A DNA stretch of 48,413 bases from Hahella ganghwensis DSM 17046 (lineage in GTDB: Bacteria; Pseudomonadota; Gammaproteobacteria; Pseudomonadales; Oleiphilaceae). The notes under the pieces were generated by a model that saw nothing but the letters and a program-made list of their open reading frames with translations, had not been told where the DNA came from and did not search any database. Where the stretch lies: the NCBI RefSeq assembly GCF_000376785.1, contig NZ_AQXX01000095.1:1-48413 (forward strand), read 5' to 3'. Shown piece by piece: positions 11,350-40,669 of the stretch. Each line of letters starts with the position of its first letter. Positions within the stretch are counted from its first letter, which is position 1. The translations under genes and the position numbers were made by a program.

Positions 11350-12135
11350 TCACCGGAACAAACGTCTCCAGACACTACACCTCTGGATTGGCAATGCCAG
11401 GCGAATAATGCTGTAGGAGAGTGAATAAATAAGACTTCTTATATATCCGGATTTTTCTCCTAACCTTGGATATCGTTGATACAGCATTTGCAGGATTGAT
11501 GAAGCCAACACCTTGGCACACACACTATCCTTCTGACCCGCAAACTCTGGTCGCATGACATCCAGTATCAACACGTAGCGTCGTCCCTTGGTATGGTTCC
11601 AGGCGGTATGAGATTTTGCATCACAGAACGGGAGCACTTTTCCCTCTTTCCAGGAGTGCTTCTCCATGTCTACTTGCAGTCCGCACTCAGGAAGTGTGCC
11701 AGGAATAGCCAACCCTAGATGGCACCGGATGACAGCATCGGTATCCCCCTGATGAGGATTGATATTTGAGTTGGGCTCAAGGAGACTCAGAGAGCAGGAC
11801 ACCAAGTGAGGAATGGTCTTGAGAATACTCACTGTCTGCGGACAACTTTTGCAGTTGCGATGCATGGTAAACGTCCAGAAGTATAGCCCCATGGTCTGCC
11901 AACTCCGGGGCGGAAATGACATGGATTTATTGATGTAATAGGGTTGTAGTCGCTGGGGTTTTGAGTCCTTTAGTGCAAACATCTCGTCCCTGATGATCAC
12001 CCAGTTGTCCTCAAGTATTTTAACCCAGGGAAGTTTTTCAGGGTCATAAAATGCCGGACGGTCTCCTGAATAGCGCCCTCCAAACTCATTGAACCAGGGA
12101 ATCGGTTTGGACGGCTGCGCTTTGGTATTCAGCAT
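11350..12135 (-). CDS. Aspartyl/asparaginyl beta-hydroxylase-like Fe(II)/2-oxoglutarate oxygenase
   Basis: Member of the aspartyl/asparaginyl beta-hydroxylase family (PF05118 type), which hydroxylates side chains or lipid acyl chains (LpxO is a relative). The jelly-roll core is clear: NPHQGDTDAVIRCHLGLAIP carries the first His and the substrate or 2-oxoglutarate Arg, and SHTAWNHTKGRRYVLILDVM carries the second metal His and the Arg-Arg-Tyr-Val signature. It is 261 residues long, with about 60 residues after the core. There is no membrane anchor. Its ATG lies three bases beyond the megasynthase stop, with GGAGGAA inside the megasynthase's last codons, so the two are translated in tandem. It probably tailors the polyketide/fatty acyl product or a carrier-bound form of it; that is an inference from position. 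It is the last gene of the 29-kb operon. Confidence 0.85.
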   Translation of the reverse strand: MLNTKAQPSKPIPWFNEFGGRYSGDRPAFYDPEKLPWVKILEDNWVIIRDEMFALKDSKPQRLQPYYINKSMSFPPRSWQTMGLYFWTFTMHRNCKSCPQTVSILKTIPHLVSCSLSLLEPNSNINPHQGDTDAVIRCHLGLAIPGTLPECGLQVDMEKHSWKEGKVLPFCDAKSHTAWNHTKGRRYVLILDVMRPEFAGQKDSVCAKVLASSILQMLYQRYPRLGEKSGYIRSLIYSLSYSIIRLALPIQRCSVWRRLFR

Positions 12136-12138
12136 GAT

Positions 12139-15100
12139 TTATTCCTCCACCGATTCAGTCGCTGGTAATGGCTCATTAATCTGCCGGTCCTTCAGAATGA
12201 TATCCGCAAGCTCACGCTGACACTGTTTTACCAGATCATGCCCTCCGGAAAGGCAGACGTAGTCAAATTCTGCATCAGCCAGACTTGCCCATGCCTGAAC
12301 ATCCTCAGGTTTAACCACAGGATCCTGATCTCCTGCAACAACCGTCAGAGGGACGCCTACCCGATCTCCGGGATTATCAAATTGTTCGAACATCTTAATA
12401 TCAGCACGAATAAGTGGCTCAAATGCCCGAATGGTTTCGGGCGGATTAATGCAGTACTTGGCAACTTCTTCCACGAAAGCCTCTGTTGGCAATGTATGAA
12501 GGTCCCCTTGAGTCTTTTCTCCTGGGACCGCAGCTCCAGAAATCACCAACTTGGCAGGAGGTTTCCCACCGACCTTTTTCAAACGTTGATACAAAGCAAA
12601 GGCCATTAACGCGCCAAGACTGTGTCCGAAGAATATGAATTCCCCATTCGGAGGAGGGAAAAACGCCGATTCAAGCGCCTCAGCCAGACTATCCAGGTTT
12701 GTCAATGGTGCCTCATCGCTCCAATCCTCTCTTCCTGGGGGGTTAACAGCGATAATCTCTACATCGTCACCAAATTCTTCACCCCACCTCGCATATACAG
12801 AGGCTCCGGCTCCGGCGTATGGAAAGCAGTAAATCGTGACTGTAGGCTCTGTTACGGAACGTTTAATGATCCGTAGCCACTTATTGGGGGCTGACTCACC
12901 AGTTTCCGATTCCTGTTTTGCTGGGTCTTTCCCCAGATAAACCCGACAATGGAGATAATCGCTGACGGCTTTAATGTGGGGATAGTTATAGGCGAGAGTG
13001 TTTGGCAGTTTGCAACCGAAATACTCTTCCAGCTTTGCGGCGAAAGTAATGGCCATCAGCGAGTCCATCCCAAGGAAGTTGAAGCGCTGCTCGGAGTCCA
13101 CATCGTTAATGGAGTCAATCAACATGACCATTCGTAACTCCATCCTGACCACTTCTTCGATCAATGAGCGTGCCTTTTCCGGAGAGCTCCGCATGATACG
13201 GGCCAGTCCCTGTTCAGAAGCACGTACCATGGAGGGGGCATCCGTCACGACCTTCGCAAACAGCGAAGGCTGCAATGAGAAATTGGTGAATGTCTGGAAG
13301 CGTTCCCAATCCATGTCCGTCACCAGGCTTAATGCAGCACCGTCCATGACCTCAAGGGACATGGCTTTAACTGCCTCGCGAGGCGACATTAATCGGAACC
13401 CAAGCTGCTGTAACACATCAACTTCATTGGGCTTGGCGCTCATTCCAACATCGGCCCAAGGGCCCCAATTGATGCAGGTGGCAGGTAGGCCATAGGCCTT
13501 TCGATATTGACTGAGCATGTCCATAAAATGGTTGGCTGCGGTGTAATGACTAAGCTCTACGGAACCCCATAAAGCAGATACGGAGGAAAAAAGAATAAAG
13601 CAGTCCAGATCACAGCACAGACTCAATCGATGCAGAGCCCAGGTCGATGACGTTTTGATTTTCAGGGTTCTGAGAAACTCGTCCCTGTTGGTATCCATCA
13701 CTTTTGAAAACCAATTTACTCCGGCCGCATGAATGACCCCCCGTATGACATACTGGTTAAACAATTGACTCAGATTATCCTCATGACGGATATCCATAGA
13801 GACAACGTCCACCCTGGCCCCATTGCGCTCTAGCTCAAGTACTTTTTGAATTTTGTCATAATGCTCTTGGGATTCCTTTATGGAGCTCCATTGTTCTCGA
13901 TCCGGCAATGGAGTCCTGCCCACCAGAACAATATGTCTGGCACCGTTCTGCACAACCCACCGGGCTGATTCCAATCCAAGGCCGCCAAGGCCACCGGTAA
14001 TAAGAAATGCACCGTCATCACGGAATCGGAGAGGCTCGCCCTCAGTCACTTTTTTGGGAATAATCTGCTGGATGAACTCCTGTCCACCGCGTAATGCGAC
14101 ACTATGCTCGCCAGAGGGCTTCAGGACTTTCTGCAGTAATCCACTGACTCGATCTTCCAGAAGCTCCTTCCTATCAATGTCGATCAGACCACCACGCCAC
14201 TCAGGATGCTCAAGGAACAACGTTTTGGAAAACCCCCAAAGCGCCGCTAGCGGCAAATTAAGATCAGACCTATCGTTATTGTCACTCTGGTCGGAAAGGA
14301 CGTTTTGAGCGTTTTCGCAAACAATCCATAGTTGCAACATCAAGCCGTTATGCTTCACTGCCTTCAGCATCGGCAGCATAGTGCCTGTTCCAGTAGCCAC
14401 CGAAATGTCAATTTCTCTGGGCGAGAGGGTGTCTGAGGTCGCCTTCCCCTGGGCCAGATAGATCATTTTCCAATCCCGGTGCCCGGCTTTCCGGCGATAG
14501 TTTTCAAATTTGGCAATGATGTAAGACCAGTCCTGAACGCTCGCCTCAGGAGACAGCACAGCATCAGGCTTTCCAGCTTTTATGCCGACCTGCGTGGAAA
14601 GGGCAACCCAAAAGACACATTTCTGAGACTTTCTCAGTCGAGAAACAACTCTTTCTGTTAATTTGCCTGGCTCACCCACTATCAGCCAATTATCGGCGTT
14701 TTGTTTAAGAAGCGCGTCTACATTCAGACTGAGAGAGCTGCTATTTTCCACCCAGGACAGCTTGTAATGTCCCGGCTGCTTGACCGTTTCCCGTTCCGGA
14801 GGACGTTGTACATCTTCAGATTTGGCAAAGGCTGATAGCGCCTCCGCATTAAAACCTTTGATCCAATAGGACTGATGCGTAAACTTCTGACCGGGGATAA
14901 GCTCCGGGCAAAACCTTCCATAAAGTATATTCTCCCAGTGAATATCGATGCCTGCTTGATACAACCTGCCCAGCGAATCAAGGAAGTAAAATAATTCCGT
15001 ACGGTCGCCCTTCTTGATATTCAGAGATCTCAGTAACAGGCCTTTGTAATTTGGGAGGTTTTCCCTGACAGCTGCCAACGTACTGGCTCCAGGGCCTATT

Positions 15101-18100
15101 TCGAGAAATGCCCAATCCTGTTCTTGGTCAAGTTTCTCAACGGCGTCTTCAAACAGCACCGTATGGCGAAGGTGATCACACCAATGATCCGCATTCGGAA
15201 CAGAATTCATAAAATCACCCCGAACGCTGGAAAGCCATTGTTTCGTAGGCCGTTTGAATTCAAATTTTTCAGCCCACTGACGGTAATCCTGCAATATGGG
15301 ATCAATCAAATGGCTATGAAAAGCCTGATCGGTCTTTAATCGATAAACTTCGACCCCTCTGGATTCAAAGTGCCTTATCAGACGCTCCATATCCTCGATT
15401 TCGCCTGAGACAACGGTTTTATGGCGACTGTTAATGGCAGCAATCTGTACCCGATCAGGGTCCATCACCGCCCTTACCTGTTGGTGGTCAGTGAATATCG
15501 TGGCCATGAAACCCTTATTCGTGATCGAATTGGTCAGTTGCGCCCGCCTTTTCAGTAAATGCATACCGACTTCCGGTTCGAAGCAACCAGCCAGACAGGC
15601 CGCTGCATATTCCCCGAGACTATGGCCAAGCAATACATCCGGCCTGACTCCGGCGGTCTGCCACAACATCCCCAGAGCATACTGAACGGCGAACAATATG
15701 GGCTGCATGTAGGTATCATTCCAATGACGCGTATCGTCGTTCTCGAATGCCATTTCGGCAAGAGTAAAGCCCTCATCGGGATTGTTCAGGGCCCGGGCAC
15801 AACGGTCGAACGCCTGACGGAAAATCGGGAAGCGGGAATATAGCTCCCTTCCCATGTGCAGATAATGTTCTCCCTGCCCGGTAAACAGGAAACAAATCTG
15901 ACTCGACTTACCTGTTGCCGGGTATCTATCCGCCTGTACATAGGCGTGAAGCCTTTCTTTCAATGCCGACAGTGAGTCCACCAGGAAATAGGTGCGGTAT
16001 TTCAGATGTGTGCGACCCAGGGCCTGGCTGTAGCAAAGGTCTCGAATCGCGATATCCGGTGCCCCATCCAGCCACTCCTCCCAATATGCAGCCTGACGTC
16101 CGAGTGCTTCAGGAGATACTGCCGACAGCACGAGCGGGTGTTGATGATAAAAGAACGCATCCGGCGGTTGCGGTTGTCGCCGCTCCACCACTTTATCCGC
16201 CTGCTTTAAAATCGCGTGAGCCAGAGAGCCTCCAAACCCGAAGGAGCTGATAGCCAGATACCGTTGGCCAGAAGCAGGCAGCCACTCATGTGGCTCGGTA
16301 GGTATGCTCAGTCTTGAGCCCTGAAGACGAATCTTCGGGTTCAACTGGCGAAGATGAATCTGCGGTGGAATCATCCCCTTCTGCAACATCAGCAGGGACT
16401 TGATGACACTGGCGATCCCCGCTCCCGCCTCCAGATGGCCGATGTTTGCCTTGACGGCTCCCACATAGCATGTGTCTTCGCAGGTATCGGTTGGAGCGTC
16501 GCATGGCATTACCTCCTTACCTGTCTGCTTAAGTTTTTTGTTGCTTTCGTAAAATCTGGTATTGCCGTAGATCTTGCATATCTGATCCATTTCAACCGGG
16601 TCACCAGTGGGGGTACCGGTGCCATGTGCTTCTACATAGCTGATATCGGAACCCGCCAATCCCGCCTGTTTCAGGCAATGACGCAACAAACGATCCTGGG
16701 CACCACCGTTGGGAGAGGTCATTCCGGCGCTGAGGCCGTCCTGACCTACACCTGCGGCGGCAACGATCGCCAGAATCGCATCGCCGTCCCGTATCGCGGC
16801 AGACTGGCGCTTAAGCATGACCAGCCCACACCCTTCAGCTCTGACATAACCGTCTGCAGAAGCATCAAAAGTTTTACATCGACCTTCCGGTGACATCATG
16901 TTGAACTGAGACAGGGTAATGGTCGGACCTGGCGACAATATGGCATTGACGCCTCCCACAATGGCTTGAGAGCAGTCTCCATTCATAATGGCCCTTGTTC
17001 CCAGATAAAATGCCGTCATTGACGAAGAGCAGGCGGTATCCACCGCCATGCTCGGTCCTTTAAGATCGTAAAAAAATGAAATCCGATTGGCCGCGACACT
17101 GTTTGCATTACCCAGTCCGGAATATGCATTAAAGCTGTTCATTCCCGGTGACAACTTTATTTTCATATACAGGTAATCGTTGGTGGAGACACCAATAAAT
17201 ACTCCGGTATCAGACCCTGCCAACTGTTGTTTTTGCCACCCGGCGTTTTCAATCAATCGCCATGAGGTCTCCAGTAGCATTCTCTGTTGTGGATCGATTT
17301 CCGGTGCCTCGGCAGCAGAGACGCCAAATAAGGCGGGATCAAACAGATCAATTCCGTCCACAAAGCCGGCCCACTTGGTACTCACCTTTCCGGGAACAGC
17401 CGGCCGTGCATCATAAAACACCTCATTATCCCAGCGCTCTGGGGGAACCTCAGTAATTGCATCTTTCCCGTTAATCAACAAATCCCAAAACGCCTCGGGG
17501 TCTGTTACATCTCCGGGAAACTTGCAGGCCATTCCGACCACTACGACCGGATCGTCTTCCATGGCTTCCTGAGTTTTGTGAGAGGAAGCTTCTATAGAAC
17601 GCTCTTCCCCAGAATTGCCGCAGTGAAGAACCTTCATCTCGTGTCGCAGATAACGTTCGAGGCAAGCCCTGCGTGCCAGCTTGTAGTTAGCAGTTCTGGG
17701 TAATGTTCCCCTGGGTACGAGCACAATAGTGTCGGCGGTGATACCAAAACCGTCGACCAGGTTGGCGTTAATCTGCTCTATGACCCTGTACTGATCTTTT
17801 GCTGGCAGATGACGTTGAACTTCCTGGAACACAAAGAGCTTTTCGCCGGAGTCTTCGATCTGAGACACGCATACACAATGGTCATTACTCTGCAGCAGCT
17901 CCTGCGTGCGGCAGACTGTATATTCAAGATCCTCGGAGGAGTAGTTAACTCCCCGGACTATGACTGTTTCCTTGGCTCGACCTGTCACATAGAGGAATCC
18001 GTTTTTGATGAACCCCAGGTCGCCGGTATTGATTGCCGGGCTCTCCGGGAAAGACATCTCCGCTGAGAGTTCTTCAAGGTATCCTACTGTCGTCGCCGGA

Positions 18101-19287
18101 CCACTGACCCAGATTTCACCTTCAACCCCTTCTCTTTCAGGCATTCCATTTTCGCGATTGCGAATATCCACCTGAATGCCATCATTCAGGGCATAAGGAA
18201 TCAGTGCCCTTTTTGACTGCAGGCCTCCATCTCCCTTGAAAGACTCCTTCCTTTTAACCACTTTTGAGTCAAGTTCTTCCAGACCATAGCGGCCGCCCGC
18301 CACCAACAATGTTGCTTCTGCCAGGCCGTATACGGGGAGGAAGGCGTTTCGATTGAAGCCTGCAGAGGCGAATGTGTGGCAGAATCGGTCCAATACCGGG
18401 AGCAATACGGTTTCTGACCCCACGCATACCTTGCTCCAACGGGAAAGATCCAACGAAGCATCCGGCTCTACCTTTCGACAGCAGTATTCAAAAGCAAAGG
18501 TGGGAGCTGCCGATAAGTTAGCCTGATATTCGGAGACGGCCTTGAGCCAGAGTTGCGGTGACTGAAGAAAGGTCCGGGGGGACATATACACGCCTGTTCC
18601 CCCCTCAAATAATGGGATGAACAGGTCGCCGACTAGCCCCATATCATGGTGCATTGGCAACCATCCTACGACCCGTGCCCGTTCTTCCAGCGCAAATACT
18701 TGCTGCATTTGCCTCATGTGAGTGATGACGCTTGAGTGTCTCAGCACGACCCCCTTCGGCTCTGACGTAGATCCAGAGGTGTACTGTATGTAGGCAATAT
18801 CGTCTGGATAAGCTCTAGGTAGCGGGATGTTATCGAGCTCGCCGGCTTGAAGCGACTCAATGGACAGAACATTGATCGAGGGTAGGCCCTCAGCCTTCAG
18901 ATGTGCCCTAACTTCATCGGATTTGGATGCTTCAACAATGATACATCCTGCCTTTCCCTGTCGAAGAATTGAAACCAGACGTCCATATCCGACCTTATCC
19001 TTCGCATGACGTAAGGGCGATACGGGGGCAGGAATCAACCCCGCAAGCATAGTGCCGAAAAAACCGACCACAAAGTCAGCCTGGTTTTCCAAAGCCAGTA
19101 AGGTGATAGATCCAGAAATACCCAACCGGTCCAGATTTTCCGCCACAATCAGGCAGTGCCGGCGTAAGCCGGCAAAACTGAATGATGTGGCCTCCTGCCC
19201 CCGACTATCAAGGAAGCGCAAGGCGATTTCGTCAGCCCTGCCCTCGGGCAAATTCAGTACAAGGTCTGCAACAGTATTTTTTCTCAT
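12139..19287 (-). CDS. FAAL-KS-AT-KR-ACP-TE polyketide megasynthase
   Basis: A 2,382-residue one-module type I PKS. Fatty acyl-AMP ligase, about 1-555: YTSGSTSEPKGVV (172), YGLAEATLLV (323), TGDLGF (420), TGRAKE (436). Ketosynthase, 576-1020: Cys in VDTACSSS (752), EAHGTGTPTGDP, NIGHLEAGAG. Acyltransferase, 1132-1450: GHSLGE Ser near 1222 and AFHSHL, suggesting malonyl-CoA. Ketoreductase, about 1500-1950: GGLGGLG (1767) and the Ser/Tyr/Asn set in FSSVSALWG and HYTAANHF. Carrier: Ser in LGMDSL (2076). Type II-like thioesterase, 2140-2370: GHSLGA (2223), GDQDP, GGHD. No dehydratase, enoylreductase or methyltransferase motif is seen. The predicted product is a fatty acid extended by one malonate and reduced to the beta-hydroxy acid, then released. 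No carrier domain lies between ligase and ketosynthase, which is unusual. It is followed three bases later by the hydroxylase gene. Confidence 0.93.
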   Translation of the reverse strand: MRKNTVADLVLNLPEGRADEIALRFLDSRGQEATSFSFAGLRRHCLIVAENLDRLGISGSITLLALENQADFVVGFFGTMLAGLIPAPVSPLRHAKDKVGYGRLVSILRQGKAGCIIVEASKSDEVRAHLKAEGLPSINVLSIESLQAGELDNIPLPRAYPDDIAYIQYTSGSTSEPKGVVLRHSSVITHMRQMQQVFALEERARVVGWLPMHHDMGLVGDLFIPLFEGGTGVYMSPRTFLQSPQLWLKAVSEYQANLSAAPTFAFEYCCRKVEPDASLDLSRWSKVCVGSETVLLPVLDRFCHTFASAGFNRNAFLPVYGLAEATLLVAGGRYGLEELDSKVVKRKESFKGDGGLQSKRALIPYALNDGIQVDIRNRENGMPEREGVEGEIWVSGPATTVGYLEELSAEMSFPESPAINTGDLGFIKNGFLYVTGRAKETVIVRGVNYSSEDLEYTVCRTQELLQSNDHCVCVSQIEDSGEKLFVFQEVQRHLPAKDQYRVIEQINANLVDGFGITADTIVLVPRGTLPRTANYKLARRACLERYLRHEMKVLHCGNSGEERSIEASSHKTQEAMEDDPVVVVGMACKFPGDVTDPEAFWDLLINGKDAITEVPPERWDNEVFYDARPAVPGKVSTKWAGFVDGIDLFDPALFGVSAAEAPEIDPQQRMLLETSWRLIENAGWQKQQLAGSDTGVFIGVSTNDYLYMKIKLSPGMNSFNAYSGLGNANSVAANRISFFYDLKGPSMAVDTACSSSMTAFYLGTRAIMNGDCSQAIVGGVNAILSPGPTITLSQFNMMSPEGRCKTFDASADGYVRAEGCGLVMLKRQSAAIRDGDAILAIVAAAGVGQDGLSAGMTSPNGGAQDRLLRHCLKQAGLAGSDISYVEAHGTGTPTGDPVEMDQICKIYGNTRFYESNKKLKQTGKEVMPCDAPTDTCEDTCYVGAVKANIGHLEAGAGIASVIKSLLMLQKGMIPPQIHLRQLNPKIRLQGSRLSIPTEPHEWLPASGQRYLAISSFGFGGSLAHAILKQADKVVERRQPQPPDAFFYHQHPLVLSAVSPEALGRQAAYWEEWLDGAPDIAIRDLCYSQALGRTHLKYRTYFLVDSLSALKERLHAYVQADRYPATGKSSQICFLFTGQGEHYLHMGRELYSRFPIFRQAFDRCARALNNPDEGFTLAEMAFENDDTRHWNDTYMQPILFAVQYALGMLWQTAGVRPDVLLGHSLGEYAAACLAGCFEPEVGMHLLKRRAQLTNSITNKGFMATIFTDHQQVRAVMDPDRVQIAAINSRHKTVVSGEIEDMERLIRHFESRGVEVYRLKTDQAFHSHLIDPILQDYRQWAEKFEFKRPTKQWLSSVRGDFMNSVPNADHWCDHLRHTVLFEDAVEKLDQEQDWAFLEIGPGASTLAAVRENLPNYKGLLLRSLNIKKGDRTELFYFLDSLGRLYQAGIDIHWENILYGRFCPELIPGQKFTHQSYWIKGFNAEALSAFAKSEDVQRPPERETVKQPGHYKLSWVENSSSLSLNVDALLKQNADNWLIVGEPGKLTERVVSRLRKSQKCVFWVALSTQVGIKAGKPDAVLSPEASVQDWSYIIAKFENYRRKAGHRDWKMIYLAQGKATSDTLSPREIDISVATGTGTMLPMLKAVKHNGLMLQLWIVCENAQNVLSDQSDNNDRSDLNLPLAALWGFSKTLFLEHPEWRGGLIDIDRKELLEDRVSGLLQKVLKPSGEHSVALRGGQEFIQQIIPKKVTEGEPLRFRDDGAFLITGGLGGLGLESARWVVQNGARHIVLVGRTPLPDREQWSSIKESQEHYDKIQKVLELERNGARVDVVSMDIRHEDNLSQLFNQYVIRGVIHAAGVNWFSKVMDTNRDEFLRTLKIKTSSTWALHRLSLCCDLDCFILFSSVSALWGSVELSHYTAANHFMDMLSQYRKAYGLPATCINWGPWADVGMSAKPNEVDVLQQLGFRLMSPREAVKAMSLEVMDGAALSLVTDMDWERFQTFTNFSLQPSLFAKVVTDAPSMVRASEQGLARIMRSSPEKARSLIEEVVRMELRMVMLIDSINDVDSEQRFNFLGMDSLMAITFAAKLEEYFGCKLPNTLAYNYPHIKAVSDYLHCRVYLGKDPAKQESETGESAPNKWLRIIKRSVTEPTVTIYCFPYAGAGASVYARWGEEFGDDVEIIAVNPPGREDWSDEAPLTNLDSLAEALESAFFPPPNGEFIFFGHSLGALMAFALYQRLKKVGGKPPAKLVISGAAVPGEKTQGDLHTLPTEAFVEEVAKYCINPPETIRAFEPLIRADIKMFEQFDNPGDRVGVPLTVVAGDQDPVVKPEDVQAWASLADAEFDYVCLSGGHDLVKQCQRELADIILKDRQINEPLPATESVEE

Positions 19288-20761: not shown

Positions 20762-20825
20762 TGGCATGACTCCCTTGCTATTATTTTGTCTGCCGGACGT
20801 CTTCCGGCATTGAGTTCACATGTGG

Positions 20826-24791: not shown

Positions 24792-24842
24792 GTTTCTTTC
24801 CACTCTTAGTCGTTAATAGGTTGGCTCATTTGTAGTCCACGG

Positions 24843-27310: not shown

Positions 27311-27314
27311 TGGC

Positions 27315-33300: not shown

Positions 33301-36300
33301 TGCAGTCCATTAACCGGGTCAGACAGTATCTGCAGAACAGCCAGAGGCTGCAGTGGATATCCCTGATCGGCGGGGCCACATATTTCCAGCGCCGTCATGA
33401 GTTCCAGTAAGGACGATGGGAAGCTGGGTATGGTGATATGGAATACCTGCTGAAGGAAATTGAAAAACTCTGTGCGGGATTCCTGATTTTCCAGCAAGGA
33501 TACCAACTGGTTGCGAATATAGCTGTCCGGATCGGAAAGCAGCCCCTGCCAACCGGCGCTGTTGATGCCATAGGGATCGCTGTCCGCTTTTCGGGTTAAG
33601 GTCAGGCCTAGAATCGAGAGTAGATCGTAAGCCGTCGTAAAGCCGGCGACATCTTTCACCTGCACTACTGCAGTCTGGACCGCTGCATTCAATAATGTCT
33701 GGAAACTGGATTGCAGCGCCGAGGTAAAGCTATCGCTTTGGTACGTTTCCAGAGAGATGTCCTGCTTTGCCTGTCCGGGCAGTGTCGCGCCAGATAGTGT
33801 GACCACGGGTTCGAAGGTAATTTCTCCAGCAGTACTTACTGACAAATTACATCCCAGAATCACTTTTTCTACACTGCCGAGATTATCCGGAAGGTCAACT
33901 AATGGGTTTCCATCAGGGTTGGACAGAGTCCCCAGGAAATTAAAGGCCGGCAGATTATTCAGGTTATCCAGGGCCCCCTTGGCGAGCGAGTATTCAATCA
34001 GACTTAGCCGACTTTGCAGATCAAACTGAAATTTGACGTCGGTACCACTGACAGTAGTCTGATATTGAAAGTTATCCTCTCGTCCTACCCCAAGTCCCAG
34101 CACCTGATCCTTTTTCGTGAACCAGCTGTATATGTCAAAGCCGAAGGGGATCGGCATGGGATAAGGGTCGTTATAGGTTCCGGTTCCTCCAATGTTGGGA
34201 GCTTTCGTTAGAGAAGTATCAATGGTCCAGGCAAGCAGGGACAACATGCTCTGCGCTTTGGCCTGGGTGGCATAGTCGCTGGCCACCTGTTTGCGGAGAT
34301 CCGGAAACGGATTACTGAAGCTGGTGATTGTCAGTTGATCAAAGCCGCTCCAGGCCAATCCCTGAGGGAAAATCGGTGAATTGGTGATATCCGGCACCAA
34401 CCCCATAGCACCTGTAAAAAACAGACCCGGCCGTGTTTCTGTCCGCATGAGAAAAGTTCCCAAGGCGGCTACCAGGAATGGCGCAAAGGTCGCTTGACCG
34501 GTGGTGACCAGATCCTGGAGGGAACTTTGATCATCAAAATTCAAGCTCTGCCCGAGAGTAATTCTATCTCCGTTGACTACCAACGCGGGCTCATCGACAA
34601 ACATCGACCAGGACCAACCACTGAAGCGACTCCAAGCCGCGGACAGCTGTGAAGGTCCGATGCTGACTGACAGCCCCCCAACCTCAGGCGTTTGTATGGG
34701 ATTGGGCAGACTCAGAGCAGCAGAGGCAACCGGTAGCCAGGTAGCAGACAGGTTGCCGGATGAAGGAAAGTCGATGCTCGCAACCGCCAAATTCAGGGAA
34801 GGCTTCACCGTGACATCGCTGACGACGATTTCAGGTATCATCGACAGCCCAAGATTCAGTCTGCTTCCACCACCGTCAATGGGTTCCTGGAAAAACTGGA
34901 CGTAGGCAGGCAGTGCCGCATTACTGATCGAAATTCCTGCCAGCCAGGGGGATTGCGGAGTCCCGTCACCTGTAACAGTGATACTGGTGGAGCCGGTATC
35001 TTTCTCTAACAACAGAGCAAAGCTCTCCACCATATAGTAGAAAGCTGATTGATCCGCGACCTTGCCGGAGTATTCCAGAATACTCAGATAATAATCCGCC
35101 AATGCCTTGATAGGGTTGAGAATGGAATTCTCCATCCCATTGGCGGAGAACGGTGGAACCAATTCCGCCGGCCAGTTGTCCCCTGCGCTTCCCGGTGCTA
35201 TCAGGCCCAATACTGCGGCAATATTATTTGAAAGCGCATTCGGGTTGTCAGTACTGACACCCAGTAGCGTCTTCAGTCCATCACTTAATAGCGCTGCCCC
35301 GGCATCCGCAAGCTGCGTCGGCGACAGTAGGTCCAATGCCTGGAAACTGCTTGAAGGTATATCCACATTGTTTAGGTAGAAATGTGGAACCGGCTTGCCG
35401 CTAAGATCCAGAGTCAGGCCCCCTTCAAGCGATCCGACACTGTAGTTGTCACCAGACTCCTTAAAAGTTGCCAACGGGTCTCCGTTGGTTTTATTCTGCA
35501 AAGCAAACTTGAACAGGAAGTTCAGTTCCGGTGACGCGGATACTCCCTGTTGACTGAGGGCGAATGCCCCGAGTTCGAGATTGGCGCTCGGAATAAAGAC
35601 AGCATCCGACGTGCCTAGAGCAATGGATTTGCCGGCAAAGGCCAACCCGGGATAGAAAAACCGGCCATGGTTCTTTTCAACCACCGAGGCGGTAGTTACC
35701 TGCAAAGTGCCAATAGATTCAAAGGAGAGAATAGCTACGGCAAAAGGCGTATTGCGATCTCCGGTTCCCGTTACAGACACAGATTTATCGCCAATAAAGC
35801 CTCCCAGGCAAGACAGCCAGGTGCTCAGGAGTTGGGGGTCTGACCCGATAGTGGTAAACCAGCTCTGGAATGGCTCCGCTGGATTGCTGGAATTGGCGAA
35901 CAGGTCGTACCAGGCCAGTATCGGCAGGCTGACGCTAGAACCCGGCACCATGGAGGAAAGGCCAAATAAAGGTGCGAAGAACCGTATCCTGTCTTCCTGT
36001 TCCGGGAAGGTTTTGGTCAATGCGCCAACAAATAACGCGCTGGCGGTATTGGTTAGCTGTACTCCAGATATAGCTCCGAGGTCAGCAATGGAGCGATTGG
36101 AAGGCTGGGCATCACCGGGCAATTGCAATGCCAGTACTTCAAGTGACACGCCGAACGGGTTACTGGCCGCAAAATCTATGGATACGCTGGCTTTTACCCC
36201 GTTGAACTGGACACCGTTAATATCCACTAGTGGAGTAGTGGCATCACCGTCTACCGCCGCCCCCATCAAAATGGGATAGCCGACTGAGTCGAACGTCAGG

Positions 36301-36797
36301 TCGAAGTTGCCATTACCCACTTTTACGAAGGGCACCAGGACAAAAGCACTGACCTGAAGTAGTGGTTCCGATGGCGCCTGGGGCACTTTCCATTCGTGTA
36401 AGGCACCGAACCCCAGGACAGTGTCCCCCGCCTTGTTGTAGCTGACGAGATAGAGACCGGTTTCCACGTCCCCGTTTTTTATCGGATACCAGGTTCCAAG
36501 AATCGTGGGATCCCTGACCGGAGCCCCTAACGCATTCCCTTCCACATCGCCCAATATCTGGGAGAGCAGTGCCTGAAACTGCTCAGGATTTCGGCTGAAC
36601 CCCTCTTTCATGCTGGTGATGGGGTCAGTAAACCAATCGTTATTCAATGTGTAGGTATCCTGTCCTTCAGATACCAACAAATTGCCTAACACCCCTAAAC
36701 TGCCCAGGATGGGATCCAGCCCTGAAAACGTGATACCACTACTACCAGGAACGCTCTCTTCTGCCCTTGCAGGAACAGTTTTTTCGATAATAGTCAT
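27315..36797 (-). CDS. DUF6603-domain giant protein (3,160 aa)
   Basis: The largest gene of the window. A DUF6603 domain lies at about residues 2080-2510, recognised from VFGALDIPLGGIPEFFVTGV, the SYYPTVPRLGMVWKM strand, GGAYFALCPTAVMAGG, NAYANFLIEWQPFYFNVGI and the closing WYVISFSIPVG. The function of this family is unknown. The preceding 2,000 residues are many degenerate repeats of long amphipathic strands joined by short helices (examples: SLTLDLATGAVEVSVGSEIV, LDFGAGITLKDIAISLS). Such a pattern can form an elongated beta groove. The last 650 residues form separate beta-rich domains. No signal peptide or membrane helix is visible. The start ATG has only a weak ribosome binding site. It follows the lipase-like gene by 61 bases and precedes the 512-aa gene by four. 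Confidence 0.85.
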   Translation of the reverse strand: MTIIEKTVPARAEESVPGSSGITFSGLDPILGSLGVLGNLLVSEGQDTYTLNNDWFTDPITSMKEGFSRNPEQFQALLSQILGDVEGNALGAPVRDPTILGTWYPIKNGDVETGLYLVSYNKAGDTVLGFGALHEWKVPQAPSEPLLQVSAFVLVPFVKVGNGNFDLTFDSVGYPILMGAAVDGDATTPLVDINGVQFNGVKASVSIDFAASNPFGVSLEVLALQLPGDAQPSNRSIADLGAISGVQLTNTASALFVGALTKTFPEQEDRIRFFAPLFGLSSMVPGSSVSLPILAWYDLFANSSNPAEPFQSWFTTIGSDPQLLSTWLSCLGGFIGDKSVSVTGTGDRNTPFAVAILSFESIGTLQVTTASVVEKNHGRFFYPGLAFAGKSIALGTSDAVFIPSANLELGAFALSQQGVSASPELNFLFKFALQNKTNGDPLATFKESGDNYSVGSLEGGLTLDLSGKPVPHFYLNNVDIPSSSFQALDLLSPTQLADAGAALLSDGLKTLLGVSTDNPNALSNNIAAVLGLIAPGSAGDNWPAELVPPFSANGMENSILNPIKALADYYLSILEYSGKVADQSAFYYMVESFALLLEKDTGSTSITVTGDGTPQSPWLAGISISNAALPAYVQFFQEPIDGGGSRLNLGLSMIPEIVVSDVTVKPSLNLAVASIDFPSSGNLSATWLPVASAALSLPNPIQTPEVGGLSVSIGPSQLSAAWSRFSGWSWSMFVDEPALVVNGDRITLGQSLNFDDQSSLQDLVTTGQATFAPFLVAALGTFLMRTETRPGLFFTGAMGLVPDITNSPIFPQGLAWSGFDQLTITSFSNPFPDLRKQVASDYATQAKAQSMLSLLAWTIDTSLTKAPNIGGTGTYNDPYPMPIPFGFDIYSWFTKKDQVLGLGVGREDNFQYQTTVSGTDVKFQFDLQSRLSLIEYSLAKGALDNLNNLPAFNFLGTLSNPDGNPLVDLPDNLGSVEKVILGCNLSVSTAGEITFEPVVTLSGATLPGQAKQDISLETYQSDSFTSALQSSFQTLLNAAVQTAVVQVKDVAGFTTAYDLLSILGLTLTRKADSDPYGINSAGWQGLLSDPDSYIRNQLVSLLENQESRTEFFNFLQQVFHITIPSFPSSLLELMTALEICGPADQGYPLQPLAVLQILSDPVNGLQTRFESLFSNAQTLATLTGELTRNIPETKYGRVSFSSNTNSVISVQVLPADAFELGSFLQVSGGIQLDLANRKLTGDISAYNPTLQLSLVDSLTLDLATGAVEVSVGSEIVWGNGSKPAAQPLTLLPFNSDSFLNQMADLAPVYSLNILLNAGIEDRLLKPYPLIQKLFVGFGLAVTAEGQNGYQMAAILGILRDPLGWLLSEAVLGTNGRFDVSKFVELLGNLPQVASSSGITLTPTPGQGLDITGLPYNFGINLTGADGMASLGFTTKDISIANKLGKVDMLKLSIGIGPTYQPAFSGQMEISAPELPAPFFTTVGYDRGFLLKLSQGTASAPTGLGVQLFPFLGWGTVAGEAASLAAATVIQQITPKLLDALENSGAQAFVSRMRTFATSVDLESLVNEILATLTPENFSKYSADQLLQMLLLQAFDWLKERFSTTTAPQTADAVKTLLSDVLPTQITTEGGRVVFNPGEDIPIQIKAGLNTDGYLGLWSDLNVPELKIVQVDVAETGVGVKIDSGDIQVSFGVRTLIPVESLNGPALSLNYIQGSGFVLAFDPLADPSNPSQASSLSRELLPVLFPGEGSLSKRLEAWLLDVIKDVLPRYISLLVLNQSSVHQWLETPIINDDKAPTPVLIFEATSLIIVAPDTNPKVYLLNSFDALTAITPKSFFGNFIKTLMENSLTLLTFGANKQGKITIGPQTGTQDHYGIQVAAPDLTLASIPSLVIQLGASDTAWISGSGGPSGDPGIGFYVPVTDSGGNIEVDFTSLNMALYNVGFDYIGTNGKPLVNLSRFTMDEVQPRALFSLSFDKGSPTLDFGAGITLKDIAISLSPNSLASGAGGNAIASNLLGSGGNSTEQNPPTNPTFSASAGYVSNIYVNLKSNTGNGEEVILPIQRSFGPLYVENLGLGWEQATKYLDFLFSGSVELAGLTASLIGLTVGVPTKTPTEFDKYSIDLQGLNITYQGGSVSVNAGLLKSDNPIEYTGVAIVSAGDFTLGALGSYAEIPTPHDGDVPSLFVFGALDIPLGGIPEFFVTGVAAGFSYNRSLKIPSIDEVQTFPLVEGVVKGSFSSGEDPKSALVKLGNSVEPEIGQYWLAAGLKFTTYKLLNSTALLFISFGREFEINLLGLSYASLPPEVKQNMALAYFELALKVSFRPSDGVVSAEAQLTPNSFVLSTDCKVTGGFAFYLWYKTIPAADGGTIPAGQFVITLGGYHPAFQKPSYYPTVPRLGMVWKMDISVGKISIDGGAYFALCPTAVMAGGYLDVTFELGPLKAWLNAYANFLIEWQPFYFNVGIGVTVGASFGTTIAGVSITIKAELGAQLQLEGPPTHGKVEVDWYVISFSIPVGSGSNATEDNNLDWSAFEQSFLPAPVQSGSGGSSQAQLLAESDASVQQVVKWNALSGLLNQNTGSDIWLVQPVPFAVSSASAIPCRAVTVTADEGGDKKVVHQQDSSAPLGVRPMGYNDHLDSPMNVEVIDQGGGRVDLVARGLTLTLGKNGAPSALWSQDPLNRQQAPAADDLLIPGAFFGLSLAADAYLYTGDVPAFPIENLKYTLGDTKDLPFSSVPDYPAAQTYSQLNAYTQLMTSIMSSDVIPVRNAIYATLEAYNILAPANPDLSVTASSADLVLQAPPVIARIGVYQNGGVVEPGSAPVLTAASKVAAAPKQTQVKAPELLGLFRRYRSTAPAAQTLTPLPTYRGQAKGRWTVTSGVVKRSAAATSLSSIPEPEFRTLYNGGIAVWKVDTQVGTTIDVSGKLPVVVATFNRSGALLFLTTLAADYGTYTLPEGTASVAVQVFGGEAGNTIGWQRDTVLSKVSSCWTAADACLIRVQNSQRIDAIGGAEIGVLAADKLLQRNRITGANQRQYDGWIQTLFPAGSSMIGVLLSGKDVSEDAISMTLARGRIPTKQDQAIVSNREQYNDSTLLLYQVPDGTDTDYIGSLLTMEDDSTSVLGIYGLSNVGAMAKTTLWKRLSLDYQALDLDQPEQASVQVKVQTKG

Positions 36798-36858: not shown

Positions 36859-38400
36859 CTAGGGAGCGGTTAACCGTATATAGCCGTCCAATGAATGATA
36901 GGTAGACTCATCCACCGCCAACTGTCCGTTCAAAACCAGTTGATCACCGACCACAAACAGCGTTCCAAACACACCGATCGACTTGGGAATCCTGTCTTTC
37001 AGCCTCAGTATCTGGAAACTTTTTCCGCTCAGTGCCTGGTCGAAGTCACTCTTGAAGATGCCGTTGGCAACCGCGTTGGAACCGAAGGTGTATACGCCAC
37101 TGACCTCAAGCCCTTTGCTGGGATTCATGGCATAGTCAGCCGCCGCGATATTGGCTATGGCGCCTCCGAAACCGTGTCCGGTCAACCACAGTTTTTTACC
37201 ACTCATCATTGAGCTGACTGTGGACAGAAGCTTGTCAGAAAATGAGGTGGTATCGGTTGAGGAAACCGGTCCGGTATAGACCAAATAGGCTCCCTTGTGT
37301 ACCTGAGCCTGGTTGTTAGGGTTAAACTCTGTGGCAACCAGACTGGAATTGGCCTCCATGGACAGGAACTCCAACCCGGTGGTCGTGCCGCGAACGGCAA
37401 CCACCACGTCAGTAACGCTGGCAAATATGTAGGCAAATGGCGCCCCATTACTCTCAATGATTGCTTCCAGGTTGTATGGAGACGTGCTCACCACACTACC
37501 GGGATGTTGTGCCAGAGCGTAGGCAGCAGCAACAAGCTGAGAAAAGCCATAGGACCTTGTCAATGAAAAGCCGGAAGGTGGGGTTGAAATAGACCCTGGT
37601 TGTGGTGGCTGCTGCTGTACCGGTGTGCCACCCAATGCCTCCAGATAAAAAACGTCACTGCGTTCGAGCCAGGGAACATCATATTCTGGAATGGAAGTAT
37701 TGAGCTGAACCACTTCTCCAGCCGCTGCATACAGTGAGTCGGAGGGTTCTGTCGGAAAGAGATCTACCGCTTCCGTGGATTTGTAGGCTTTGAAGTTGAA
37801 CTGATCGGAAACGTTATTATTAAAGTAACTGGCGAACTCTGTATTACCGAAGTTAGCTGTCGAAAATACGTAGCCGGCAGGCTGTGTGTCAGGCGATTTC
37901 TGCCCTTTACTTGGACCGCTGTTGCCTGGACGCAAGTCCAGAGCCGCAATTTGAGCGATAGGTCCACCAAGACTCATGCCGCAAATATACAAGGGAAGAT
38001 CATTTAAATAATCCGTCACGACTTCCCAAATATTATCGCGTACATTGTTATAGGCATTGGCAAACAGGTTGAGCACTTTGCCAACGTTCCCGGTTCCTGT
38101 CACCTGAGAAGGCAGCTCAGCTTGCGCGGTAGGATCAAATGGTGTGATGCTGGTACCTAGAAAATCTTCCCAAGTGATACCCAATGAAAGTGCCGCTGCA
38201 ATATCGCCGCTGGAATCTATGGGGCCTTTGGCGATAAAACCCTGCACAGTAACTGAAGGTGGGCTGAAACGCGCGCTGAAGGTCTTTAACAGTACCCATC
38301 CTGGTGGAAGACTCGGACTGTTCTCTATCATATCCGGAAGGATTGCCTGGGAGGCGAGTTGCTCCAGGACAATCCTTGTTGCATTAGAATCTTCTAACAT
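36859..38400 (-). CDS. Tandem class-3 lipase-like protein with split active sites
   Basis: Alpha/beta hydrolase of 513 residues built from two lipase-class-3-like lobes. Lobe 1 (about 30-260) has a nucleophile elbow GMSLGG (Ser near 142) and an acid residue in STEAVDLFP (near 212), but no histidine anywhere in roughly its first 300 residues. Lobe 2 (about 300-513) has VVVAVRGTTTGLEFL, an elbow reading GHGFGG (Gly near 408 in place of Ser, one base from AGT), an acid in LRLKDRIPK (467) and a His in TYHSLDGY (503). The lobes may therefore share one site, or the protein may be a non-catalytic lipid binder. The ATG at 38400 has GGGAGAGAAAG upstream; an in-frame codon 18 residues earlier is less likely. 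There is no secretion signal. It precedes the DUF6603 gene by 61 bases. Confidence 0.85.
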   Translation of the reverse strand: MLEDSNATRIVLEQLASQAILPDMIENSPSLPPGWVLLKTFSARFSPPSVTVQGFIAKGPIDSSGDIAAALSLGITWEDFLGTSITPFDPTAQAELPSQVTGTGNVGKVLNLFANAYNNVRDNIWEVVTDYLNDLPLYICGMSLGGPIAQIAALDLRPGNSGPSKGQKSPDTQPAGYVFSTANFGNTEFASYFNNNVSDQFNFKAYKSTEAVDLFPTEPSDSLYAAAGEVVQLNTSIPEYDVPWLERSDVFYLEALGGTPVQQQPPQPGSISTPPSGFSLTRSYGFSQLVAAAYALAQHPGSVVSTSPYNLEAIIESNGAPFAYIFASVTDVVVAVRGTTTGLEFLSMEANSSLVATEFNPNNQAQVHKGAYLVYTGPVSSTDTTSFSDKLLSTVSSMMSGKKLWLTGHGFGGAIANIAAADYAMNPSKGLEVSGVYTFGSNAVANGIFKSDFDQALSGKSFQILRLKDRIPKSIGVFGTLFVVGDQLVLNGQLAVDESTYHSLDGYIRLTAP

Positions 38401-38561
38401 CTTTCTCTCCCTGAAAAGTAGTATGCTGTGCTGGGTGTCTATATCGCCTGCCACCCCTCTCTTCTATTGCCCACTCACCTTAAATTCACTGACTCATCTC
38501 ACTCATCAGTAGCTAACCTAAACGCGATCCACTGAACGACTTTTTTACTGGCCCGATCAGA

Positions 38562-38660: not shown

Positions 38661-39401
38661 TTACTGGTCTTTTGGAATAAATTTAGTATGACCGGGCTGA
38701 CCGTTGGTCCCGGCTCTGCCACTACCCGGATTTATTCCGGAGTTACCAGGGAAGGCATTGGAAGGTTCTCCTCCCGGTGGCGTTTCATTCTTTCCGCCAG
38801 CCCCTCCTGCTCCACCGTTTCCACCTGGTCCTGACGCTCCTCCTTTTCCAGGTGAGCTCAGACTGGAAATCTGACCAATGTATTTTTCATCAACGTAATA
38901 AACGGTGATATCTCCACCATTGCCGCCAGTACCACCGTCACCACCTCTACCTCCGTCAGTACCATTGCCACCCTGTCCACCTTTGGCAGGATCACACTTT
39001 CCATCACTGACACAGCTACCGGCGTTAGATCCGGCGTCACCTCCTGGAGCTCCTTTACCCCCGGCACCACCAGCTCCGCCATTACCGCCGGTGCCGCCCT
39101 GACTGACAATTCTCAGCATTTGGGTCGGCTCGCTAAAAGTGAATTGTCCAACGGTGAGAATGAACATGGGGCAGTTCCCGCCGCTGCTTCCATTCCCCCC
39201 GTTTCCTCCGGCACTAACGGCGTCTGCCCCCTTGGTTCCATTCTTGGCACAGGTACAACCGCAGTGTGATTTGCCGTTCGCGCCATCCTGACCGGTTCCG
39301 GCGGCTGCACTGTTTTTTCCATCAATCCCCGCCAATCCGGCAGAACCGTTGCTGCCGTCAATTGCGGTGATCCTGATGGTAGGTAATGTAGTTTCCGTCA
39401 T
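38661..39401 (-). CDS. (Gly-Gly-X)-rich structural protein 1
   Basis: 246 residues, largely runs of Gly-Gly-X (for example GGNGGAGGAGGKGAPGGDAG). Two short strand segments interrupt them: MFILTVGQFTFSEPTQMLRI and DITVYYVDEKYIGQISSL. Cys pairs occur in CGCTC and CVSDGKC. The repeat is mainly Gly-Gly-X and poor in Pro, so a polyglycine II helix bundle is a better model than a collagen triple helix. A cousin of the next gene: both begin with MT, share a VYY strand and the same block order. The ATG has AGGAGG about ten bases upstream. There is no signal peptide. It probably forms a rigid stalk or surface layer in the operon's assembly (inference). Confidence 0.75.
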   Translation of the reverse strand: MTETTLPTIRITAIDGSNGSAGLAGIDGKNSAAAGTGQDGANGKSHCGCTCAKNGTKGADAVSAGGNGGNGSSGGNCPMFILTVGQFTFSEPTQMLRIVSQGGTGGNGGAGGAGGKGAPGGDAGSNAGSCVSDGKCDPAKGGQGGNGTDGGRGGDGGTGGNGGDITVYYVDEKYIGQISSLSSPGKGGASGPGGNGGAGGAGGKNETPPGGEPSNAFPGNSGINPGSGRAGTNGQPGHTKFIPKDQ

Positions 39402-39415
39402 AGTTCACCTGCCTC

Positions 39416-40057
39416 CTATCCGATTTGTTGAACGGTGATGGTAGGCGCGGTGCCCGGGTTACCTGTTCTTCCGTTGCTTCCACCCATGCCAGCAGGACTG
39501 CCTGGACCTCCAGCGCCGCCCTGACCGGGTTGTCCAGGTTTGCCGGTGCTCGGGCTCTGGGTGATATCACCGGATACGTGCTGGTAGTAAACAGTCACAT
39601 TGGGGCCGGAGCCACCGTCACCGGCATTGCCACCGTCGCCGCCTCTGCCACCGGGCCCCTGAGGTCCACTTGAAGCACCCGTACAGGGAGAAGCGTTGTT
39701 ACCGGGGCTTCCACCCGGACCTCCTGGTCCGCCAGTGCCGCCTTTTCCGCCGTCCTGTCCGTCTCCACCGGAGACTTCAATCGAAAGGTTTCCTTCAATG
39801 GTCATCAAATTAAATATGCTGACAGGACCTGATCTTCCCTTTGCGCCATTGGAGCCGGACCGACCTTCGCCACCGACACCTCCCTGGCCACCATTGGTTG
39901 GATTGGTATCACATACTGTTTTGCAATCACCTGAATCATAGTGGGTCTCTGCGGGGTTCCCTTGGGGCCCCTGACTGCCGGTTCCACCATCCTGCCCCGG
40001 TGTGGCTGGGGTGTCGTAATCAGCAACAACTACCTGAATTACTTTTGTATCAGTCAT
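39416..40057 (-). CDS. (Gly-Gly-X)-rich structural protein 2
   Basis: 213 residues, paralogous to the preceding Gly-rich protein. The order is: short N-terminal strand (VIQVVVADYD), Gly-rich run, a Cys pair (CKTVC), the strand pair VSIFNLMTIEGNLSIEVS, a long Gly-Gly-X run, VTVYYQHVSGDIT, then a Gly/Pro-rich tail ending TITVQQIG. Some Gly-Pro-Gly and Gly-Pro-Ala triplets occur, so this member is more collagen-like than its cousin. There is no signal peptide or enzyme motif. The start ATG has GGAG seven bases upstream, overlapping the last codons of the 202-aa gene (gap of three bases), and the gene ends 14 bases before its paralogue starts. All three are clearly cotranscribed. Confidence 0.75.
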   Translation of the reverse strand: MTDTKVIQVVVADYDTPATPGQDGGTGSQGPQGNPAETHYDSGDCKTVCDTNPTNGGQGGVGGEGRSGSNGAKGRSGPVSIFNLMTIEGNLSIEVSGGDGQDGGKGGTGGPGGPGGSPGNNASPCTGASSGPQGPGGRGGDGGNAGDGGSGPNVTVYYQHVSGDITQSPSTGKPGQPGQGGAGGPGSPAGMGGSNGRTGNPGTAPTITVQQIG

Positions 40058-40060
40058 AGC

Positions 40061-40669
40061 CTACTCCATAATGAATTGCTGACAATTGATGGTGGCGTTT
40101 TCGGATACCTGGATATAACCGCCAGGCTTGACGGTAATCGTTCCGTAATTGTGAACCTGAGGGTCTCCCGGCTTGATGATCAGTGGGTTTTCGGCAGTGA
40201 CGACAATATCTTCTGCGACAAAAGCCGCTACTTTGCCTGGGAACATACGAGCATTAATCAACGGCTCATAGTCTTTAACCTTGCTTGAATTACCGAGCAC
40301 ATAGGCGGTGGCTGCCTTTCTGATATTCTCATGCATTTCAGGTGTGACCGAACGATGAAACTCATCTGTAGAATTGGCAGACTTCAGCAGGTTTAGGTGT
40401 GCCTGCTGAGCCGGCTCGGGATATTCAACGTGGGAGTCATCGTTTGTATCAGGAATTCCCACCAGTTTGTTCATATCCGCAATGGAGGCCACCGGTATGA
40501 TTTTGGGGGGGATGTGAGAGGCTAGAGGATCGGAACACATATGCACAGGACCACTGCCTTTTGACAGGATATGGTCCTGACAGAAGGTGGTTTCATTGGC
40601 CCCCATGCCCAGCCGCTGGTTAATATCCGAAAATGCTTTTGCTTCGGTGTCACTTAACTTGTCGCTCAT
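40061..40669 (-). CDS. Uncharacterised 202-aa protein, first gene of the operon
   Basis: No family recognised. The N-terminal 60 residues are mixed, with Cys and His in TFCQDHILSKG and HMCSDPLASH. A helical middle (about 85-140) includes AQQAHLNLLKSANSTDEFH. The last 60 residues are a run of short strands with Gly/Pro/Asn turns (VVTAENPLIIKPGD, NYGTITVKPGGYIQV), resembling a beta-helix rung array or capping domain. There is no signal peptide. The ATG at 40669 has AGGAGC seven bases upstream. As the promoter-proximal gene it should be the most abundantly made of the set. The function is unknown; a surface or nucleating subunit for the Gly-rich proteins is a guess. Confidence 0.7.
   Translation of the reverse strand: MSDKLSDTEAKAFSDINQRLGMGANETTFCQDHILSKGSGPVHMCSDPLASHIPPKIIPVASIADMNKLVGIPDTNDDSHVEYPEPAQQAHLNLLKSANSTDEFHRSVTPEMHENIRKAATAYVLGNSSKVKDYEPLINARMFPGKVAAFVAEDIVVTAENPLIIKPGDPQVHNYGTITVKPGGYIQVSENATINCQQFIME

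Follow-up and report, generated by a model that had tools for sequence, protein, structure and literature searches.

Extracellular contractile injection systems and Tc-like toxins have large co-encoded proteins with swappable receptor-binding ends. Olefin synthase, in the account given by PMC11837247, comprises a fatty acyl-AMP ligase (FAAL) with an acyl carrier protein (ACP), then ketosynthase (KS), acyltransferase (AT), ketoreductase (KR) and ACP domains, a sulfotransferase and a thioesterase (TE). Phage S16 gp38 is presented in PMC6851490 as a polyglycine-II adhesin tip, with a domain of over 50% glycine. For Hahella, a natural-product survey (PMC9030710) covers strain CCB-MM4; its main text contains no mention of a domain of unknown function (DUF), a lipase or an acyl-AMP ligase. 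Here, we describe an eleven-gene operon of Hahella ganghwensis DSM 17046, in which a FAAL-polyketide synthase (PKS) stands beside a giant DUF6603 protein. It lies on contig C95 (NZ_AQXX01000095.1) of a 6.56-Mb genome. The whole contig, 48,413 nucleotides, is called the window. Our literature search of 5.39 million papers found none naming DUF6603 and, judged by title and abstract start, no description of such a system. The operon, with genes labelled A to K, is best explained as one lineage's version of a multi-protein system. This would have a core, made of G, F, E and D, and a distal lineage-specific recognition protein, here C.

An earlier note on this DNA, made from the sequence alone, had described an eleven-gene operon on one strand. 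All eleven open reading frames (ORFs) were found where it had placed them. They occupy the minus strand from 40669 to 11350, and the coordinates given below for the operon genes and their leader refer to this strand. The order of transcription is K, J, I, H, G, F, E, D, C, B, A, with successive gaps of 3, 14, 206, 61, 4, -4, 39, 58, 37 and 3 bases. Nine of the ten gaps are thus between -4 and 61 bases. The gap separating I from H is 206 bases if H starts at a GTG codon and 260 if it starts at ATG. We take it as 206, because the GTG at 38454 has a purine run upstream and likeness to the N-terminus of the CCB-MM4 protein begins there. The tight same-strand run stands as described; its 260-base gap, which fits an ATG at 38400, is corrected. 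Hahella sp. CCB-MM4 is the closest named relative (97% identity for protein F), and its locus was the only one returned by a contig search with one single-sequence query. Compared with CCB-MM4, all 11 genes have dN/dS between 0.03 and 0.08 (dS 0.48 to 0.91). Therefore, each, including the Gly-rich pair, looks like a maintained protein-coding gene.

G (3,160 residues; 27315..36797) is the DUF6603 protein recognised previously. The Pfam match (PF20248) covers residues 2059-2558, equivalent to about 29124-30623, with an E-value of 3.9e-135 and 451.7 bits against a curated cut-off of 27. The proteins F (512 residues; 25772..27310), E (310 residues; 24843..25775) and D (1,325 residues; 20826..24803) are in no known family. 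We mapped 32 DUF6603 loci: the window, 26 genome places and five plasmid records (two from Streptomyces and one each from Embleya, Paenibacillus and Halalkalicoccus). Near relatives, namely the window and CCB-MM4, and the numbered genomes G451 and G521 of our collection, are counted apart. Further DUF6603 places, outside these 32, are in G876 (at a contig end) and in plasmid hits H2, H4, H5 and H9. G, F, E and D co-occur in 28 of the 32 loci, and in 27 the order is G-F-E-D. The exception is G990, where D is placed before G. Cores were found in Pseudomonadota, Actinomycetota and Bacillota. F and E form one open frame in 9 of the 28 core loci, the window not among them. Because of this fusion, we infer that F and E bind each other.

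Genomes with DUF6603 are few: 6 of 274 for the class, 9 of 398 for the phylum, 8 of 101 for the family and 11 of 390 for the order, in sampled sets that overlap one another and each include the window's own genome. Of six other genomes listed for the genus, one (G690) has it. E is present in 4 of 258 class genomes, and all four have DUF6603. In Pfam searches at E 0.05, C, D, E, F, I and J matched no family and K gave a sub-threshold match only. No family exceeded its cut-off for C, D, E or F in any library scanned. Relatives of D (14) and F (17) were also scanned and gave no family, except for an F5/8 type C domain in one D. The earlier note had counted four unrecognised large proteins. They are indeed without known family, but D, E and F form a recurrent core with G. 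By these comparisons, G-F-E-D is a previously undescribed conserved core.

Side observations concern two of these loci. In G990 (L099:15506-16669), an APH-like kinase (E 0.0042, under cut-off) is encoded between D and G; an APH-family gene also occurs in the operon of genome G077, described below. On a Paenibacillus polymyxa plasmid (L057 2206-9990), genes for two baseplate-V proteins, a DUF4280 protein and pentapeptide-repeat proteins lie 9-14 kb upstream of the DUF6603 core.

The two acyl enzymes are encoded at the end of the operon. B (2,382 residues; 12139..19287) has the domain order FAAL-KS-AT-KR-ACP-TE. The active-site residues checked are in place in three orthologs: Cys-His-His of the KS, Ser of the AT, Tyr of the KR, Ser of the ACP, and Ser and His of the TE. 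Hence, with every active-site residue checked present, the complete FAAL/PKS with its own thioesterase that had been proposed is confirmed. The AT domain carries QAFHSH, which we take to be a malonyl-type motif. The FAAL match stops at residue 554 and the KS starts at 579; the single PP-binding match is at 2061-2112. The Pfam scan gave no loading ACP between FAAL and KS, and no sulfotransferase family. By domain logic, the product of B would be a 3-hydroxy acid two carbons longer than the fatty acid it starts from. Such a product is expected in place of an alkene because B lacks the loading ACP and the sulfotransferase. A (261 residues; 11350..12135) belongs to the Asp/Arg-hydroxylase family of Pfam. 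Its only NCBIfam matches are OlsC and LpxO, with scores of 111 and 84 against equivalog cut-offs of 450 and 500. In three orthologs, A keeps a His motif, presumably iron-binding.

H (531 residues; 36859..38454) consists of two lipase-3-like halves, matched by PF01764 in two stretches (E 5.8e-31). In both Hahella copies, Gly replaces the nucleophile Ser in the C-terminal half, with Asp and His kept. The N-terminal half of these copies retains Ser and Asp, but between this Asp and residue 317 there is no His. Since neither half holds a complete Ser-Asp-His triad, H is probably no working lipase in Hahella. The likeness to lipases noted earlier is thus real, while an active enzyme is not supported by the residues, and we regard that reading as weakened. 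Here, H probably serves for binding and not for hydrolysis. In the G077 copy (L015:4230-5786), Ser, Asp and His are all in the C-terminal half. Hence, the nucleophile elbow of this tandem protein is retained in the N-terminal half in Hahella and in the C-terminal half in G077.

The pairing of the acyl enzymes with the core is not confined to Hahella. G077 is related to the window genome at class level only; its order has four genomes in the collection, one with DUF6603. In G077, a single-strand run encodes G, F, E, D, C, a K-Gly-rich fusion, K, two Gly-rich proteins, H, a further Gly-rich protein, an APH-family kinase, B and A. Identities to the window, for the nine genes compared (A-H and K), range from 28 to 61%: 61% for A, 41% for B over its full length, 40% for F, 37% for K, 35% for D, E and G, 30% for H and 28% for C. 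Relatives of A occur in 35 of 274 class genomes, own genome included. Outside the own genome, that of G077 is the best at 61%, and the other matches listed are at most 38%. Among 23 chosen genomes, full-length B relatives beyond the window's own were found only in CCB-MM4 and G077. All three loci found with A and B also have the core. Judged by purifying selection and by the full set, reordered, in another order, the eleven-gene neighbourhood is not due to chance.

Acyl genes of a second, unrelated kind accompany the core in two genomes of the Pseudomonas order. In G451, genes upstream of the core on the same strand encode FabA-like (3.7e-20), ketosynthase (3.9e-28), FabG-type short-chain reductase (6.6e-54) and ACP (5.5e-6) proteins, as well as a metallo-beta-lactamase-like protein slightly short of its Pfam cut-off. 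G521 belongs to the same genus, and its four acyl genes are 97-99% identical to these. A tree of D with 28 rows has long branches and uneven composition; six rows fall in no label group, among them G506, although it has the long protein encoded after D. In this tree, the window clusters with G077 (100/100) and not with loci of its own family, and G451/G521 are on a separate branch from the PKS-bearing clade. As the window's D is nearest to that of G077, the tree suggests that the operon moved between lineages. Two independent gains of acyl synthesis are the simplest reading, because the PKS loci and G451/G521 fall in different parts of the tree. In the Pseudomonas-order locus (L025:8936-16637), the genes before the DUF6603 core encode an M64-peptidase-like protein in addition to the FabA, KS, short-chain reductase, ACP and metallo-beta-lactamase-like proteins. 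The metallo-beta-lactamase-like protein matches the PADLOC models LmuA (6.9e-20) and RTasMBL (2.1e-13).

The gene after D varies between lineages. In a D-tree clade of 11, ten have a relative (30-85% identical) of a 1,274-residue protein, and none was detected in G012. Two members of this family were scanned and had no Pfam match; by eye, the protein reads like a beta-propeller. Another post-D family, united by profile matches, occurs in Embleya, Streptomyces, G451/G521, G812, G990 and G353. Its domains include F5/8C (Embleya), PLAT (Streptomyces clavuligerus) and LamG (G812). In G990, a separate LamG gene is next to the post-D gene. Also observed in G812 (L093-L098) were three separate DUF6603 cores. 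After each core a LamG-type protein is encoded, different every time and once slightly short of the Pfam cut-off, and one of the three proteins carries a chitin-binding CBM5/12 domain. The three cores look like diversification of the binding part.

In the window, the gene after D encodes C (480 residues; 19325..20767). With hhalign, C gave probabilities of 59% (local) and 64% (global) against the Embleya-seeded post-D profile, one of four, and in one comparison the E-value was 9e-5 or better. The 60 control profiles all stayed under 50%, with 3.1% as the highest value. The four post-D profiles scored 93-100% with each other in 4 of 6 pairs, and 0.5% and 5.8% in the other two; this grouping was prompted by reading the sequences and is an after-the-fact test. 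C is probably related, though remotely, to a family whose genes follow D elsewhere. Profiles of C, H and K were also compared with 137 neighbour proteins of other loci, and the best of the matches listed scored 21.2%.

Three small proteins are encoded at the start of the operon. J (213 residues; 39416..40057) and I (246 residues; 38661..39401) are Gly-Gly-X proteins of 29% and 30% Gly, with dN/dS of 0.041 and 0.082, respectively. J has a collagen-like adhesin match of 15.4 bits, against a cut-off of 325. K (202 residues; 40061..40669) has an end that, by eye, resembles beta-helix rungs. It was found in 2 of 258 class genomes, the window's own (G000) and G077. The latter has two K relatives, one of them fused to a Gly-Gly-X domain.

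To characterise G further, we measured the alternation of hydropathy along its DUF6603 domain. The fraction of strongly alternating 9-residue windows was 0.297. In 118 other ORFs sampled from the host genome the mean was 0.133 (standard deviation 0.036), with none above the G domain, and 1000 shuffles gave 0.228 at most. Over 31 loci, DUF6603 averaged 0.261, with a mean GRAVY of +0.20, which is net hydrophobic. Comparison proteins chosen by eye as being of outer-membrane type scored 0.234 (FadL-like) and 0.202 (TonB-receptor-like), and propeller-like proteins about 0.10. The alternation agrees with a large beta structure that is greasy on one face; it is not proof of lipid binding.

A hydropathy scan gave no clear signal peptide or transmembrane helix among the window proteins. 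For D the result is borderline (2.02 at the 11-residue peak, at residue 21), and the claim that no signal peptide is evident holds by this measure. Library scans matched no transporter or regulator family among the eleven proteins, as the earlier note had also said.

We favour the view that the operon encodes proteins that assemble, with a tip for binding surfaces and a hydrophobic part in which a dedicated acyl molecule is held. As a joint reading, we give this a probability of roughly 0.36, a little over one in three. The absence of clear signal peptides fits a lipid-containing assembly, as do the recognition-type domains in the distal gene of other loci. What we infer about assembly, cargo and export is as follows. 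The core proteins would be made in the cytoplasm and form one complex. C, K, J and I would form the exposed end that binds surfaces. DUF6603, with its amphipathic beta structure, would shield acyl chains. B would join a FAAL-activated acid to one malonyl unit, with one reduction and thioesterase release, to give a 3-hydroxy fatty acid, and A may add a further hydroxyl. The resulting acid, free or attached, would be cargo or a structural ligand of the complex. The complex might act outside the cell, and exit, if any, would be by lysis or an unlinked route. Our confidence in these steps falls from F-E binding, through the core complex, the surface part formed by C, K, J and I, the holding of acyl chains by DUF6603 and the identity of that acyl with the B-A product, to extracellular action. 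More doubtful is a wider view, that DUF6603-F-E-D may be a bacterial macromolecular machine of a class not described before, spread across phyla. Such a machine would be a giant amphipathic beta scaffold carrying acyl molecules, with exchangeable lectin-like tips and, in some lineages, a dedicated synthase. It might serve for lipid delivery or as a lipid-armed particle.

Several results weigh against the favoured assembly. A same-strand KS gene was found in 5 of the 32 loci and was undetected in the other 27, within stretches of 5.6 to 62.7 kb (short ones being G194, 5.6 kb, and G265, 15.2 kb) and with B as the query, which a very distant KS could escape. Hence, acyl synthesis is an optional, repeated add-on outside the core, and lipid is not a general part of the system. 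G451 and G521 count once, because they are near-copies. In G680, G265, G194 and Halalkalicoccus, G is accompanied by no more than a remote F-like protein, and E and D are absent; judged by further families common to them, they are a second subtype. A Paenibacillus sonchi plasmid encodes F-E and a split D, with no DUF6603 in the 28.7 kb fetched. At E 1, searches of Protein Data Bank sequences with G and with profiles of D, E and F gave no relative. For C, the other three post-D profiles scored under 5%, and its alignment had three rows, two after filtering. The relationship is probable, not proven, because the alignment is thin and only one of the four profiles matched. A LamG protein had an alternation of 0.219, so that a high value does not specifically mark lipid binding. 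The relatives that passed a transmembrane-like hydropathy threshold somewhere were 12 of 32 for G, 1 of 32 for F, 1 of 28 for E and 1 of 29 for D. The N-terminal hydropathy threshold was passed by five D proteins (the window's included, at 2.02), one G and one E. AlphaFold gave mean pLDDT values of 33 for E (1 sequence) and 27 for the DUF6603 domain (2 near-identical sequences), too low for use.

The outcome for the lipid-containing assembly first proposed is therefore divided. The unit linking acyl synthesis to the DUF6603 set is upheld, by G077 and by the second acyl set elsewhere; the assembly of its proteins, a lipid component and a form as surface layer, particle or tube are conjectural. 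Nor are the PKS and the DUF6603 set consistently separate or consistently joined: most mapped cores have no detected KS, yet each of the three loci found with A and B has a core.

Alternatively, the core could be released as a particle for killing or delivery, an antagonistic or injection-type device whose tip proteins pick the target and whose PKS product is a toxic cargo. The swappable recognition domains after D agree with this, and the Gly-Gly-X proteins are similar in make-up to phage tip adhesins. Varied enzymes adjoin other cores (M64-peptidase-like, metallo-beta-lactamase-like just under cut-off, and PLD-like), and baseplate V phage genes are 9-14 kb away on the one Paenibacillus plasmid. 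Against such a device, no tail, sheath, tube, baseplate or AAA ATPase family was matched in the operon by Pfam or by PHROGs (the latter for all proteins but B). A viral origin of the core was rejected: F and the C-terminal third of G have no match in 50,697 phage records, and the E and D profiles have none in viral contigs. No immunity family was recognised within the operon. An 884-residue protein with an Imm49 immunity domain (E 9.5e-9) is encoded just past the operon's 3' end on the opposite strand (8084-10738, plus strand); none of the other 31 mapped loci has a relative of it. We consider the device unlikely. An anti-phage defence system was also tried and rejected, as PADLOC gave 0 matches for seven window proteins (C, D, E, F, H, K and the DUF6603 domain).

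Another possibility is a small-molecule biosynthesis cluster, with C to K as scaffolds, carriers or self-protection for the PKS product. The complete FAAL-PKS and the hydroxylase are as expected of such a cluster, and in G077 an APH-family kinase gene lies between B and the Gly-rich gene after H. However, the core is far larger than the pathway and mostly occurs with no detected KS, and no exporter was recognised. Hence, a biosynthesis cluster is distinctly unlikely. An acyl-modified cell-surface or matrix layer, exported by an unknown route, would account for the large proteins, the Gly-Gly-X proteins and the sugar-binding-type domains of relatives. It sits badly with the lack of clear signal peptides, and no S-layer homology domain or anchor family exceeded its cut-off among the operon proteins; we find it harder still to credit. 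An intracellular storage or lipid compartment is improbable. The lack of clear signal peptides, the hydrophobic amphipathic giant protein and the in-place acyl synthesis would suit one, but sugar-binding-type distal proteins fit poorly inside a cell. Finally, two unrelated adjoining units, a PKS-hydroxylase pair and a DUF6603 set, would explain why the PKS is missing from most mapped DUF6603 loci, but this very improbable arrangement was rejected, since G077 retains the pairing despite deep divergence and gene reordering and the core is in all three loci with A and B.

The surroundings of the operon were also compared. Upstream of K, a leader (40670..41396) falls in a 735-base match, 80% identical in CCB-MM4. 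An ORF within it (41018-41383) has just 50% protein identity to CCB-MM4 and, given the 80% identity of the DNA, is probably no gene. This stretch of about 730 bases is perhaps a conserved leader or control region. Beyond it, the flanks have no match in the CCB-MM4 DNA outside the operon (30.7 kb: 26.6 kb upstream and 4.1 kb downstream). Hence, the surroundings differ from those in CCB-MM4, at least upstream. Further upstream, the window encodes an HSP70/MreB-like protein (43272-44537) and a trypsin-PPC protease (45516-46955). We rejected a GC-anomalous island: GC content is 0.519 for the operon and averages 0.497 (standard deviation 0.024) over 53 sampled 5-kb genome windows, of which 22 have at least 0.50; the flanks, not the operon, are low. 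Scans of the window found no tRNA, and no Rfam family reached the gathering threshold; promoter and terminator scans gave results close to those for shuffled sequence.

The core is of wider interest because large proteins without family recur in three phyla, with a divergent subtype in a haloarchaeon, and many loci adjoin exchangeable binding-type proteins. The window offers the strongest functional clue to this core, namely a complete dedicated acyl pathway. Its product is identifiable by ordinary lipid chemistry, and so the role of DUF6603 is directly testable. If the acyl product were on or in the complex, this would be a protein-lipid assembly unlike any described one known to us.

How, then, does the operon compare with described systems? 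It resembles extracellular contractile injection systems and Tc-like toxins in its large co-encoded proteins and in the exchangeable, presumably receptor-binding ends, but none of their families was matched among its proteins. As in phage S16 gp38, Gly-rich motifs alternate with short variable segments, and a K domain is joined to Gly-Gly-X in G077. However, I and J are about 30% Gly over their whole length and no phage genes accompany them; the likeness is one of sequence motif only. G can be set beside the AsmA/TamB bridge-like lipid transfer proteins, as outlined in PMC11014939, for its length and presumed hydrophobic beta face. This is a works-like comparison only, as G lacks an AsmA or TamB Pfam match and an N-terminal membrane helix. 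The alternating hydropathy would be compatible with a groove of beta strands that is hydrophobic inside. A shares the Asp/Arg-hydroxylase Pfam family with the lipid 2-hydroxylases LpxO and OlsC, its sole NCBIfam matches, but is far under both equivalog cut-offs. B differs from the cyanobacterial olefin synthase in having neither a loading ACP after FAAL nor a sulfotransferase, and in being embedded with DUF6603 genes. Like that enzyme, it combines FAAL, KS-AT-KR-ACP and a thioesterase, for one extension and ketoreduction of an activated fatty acid.

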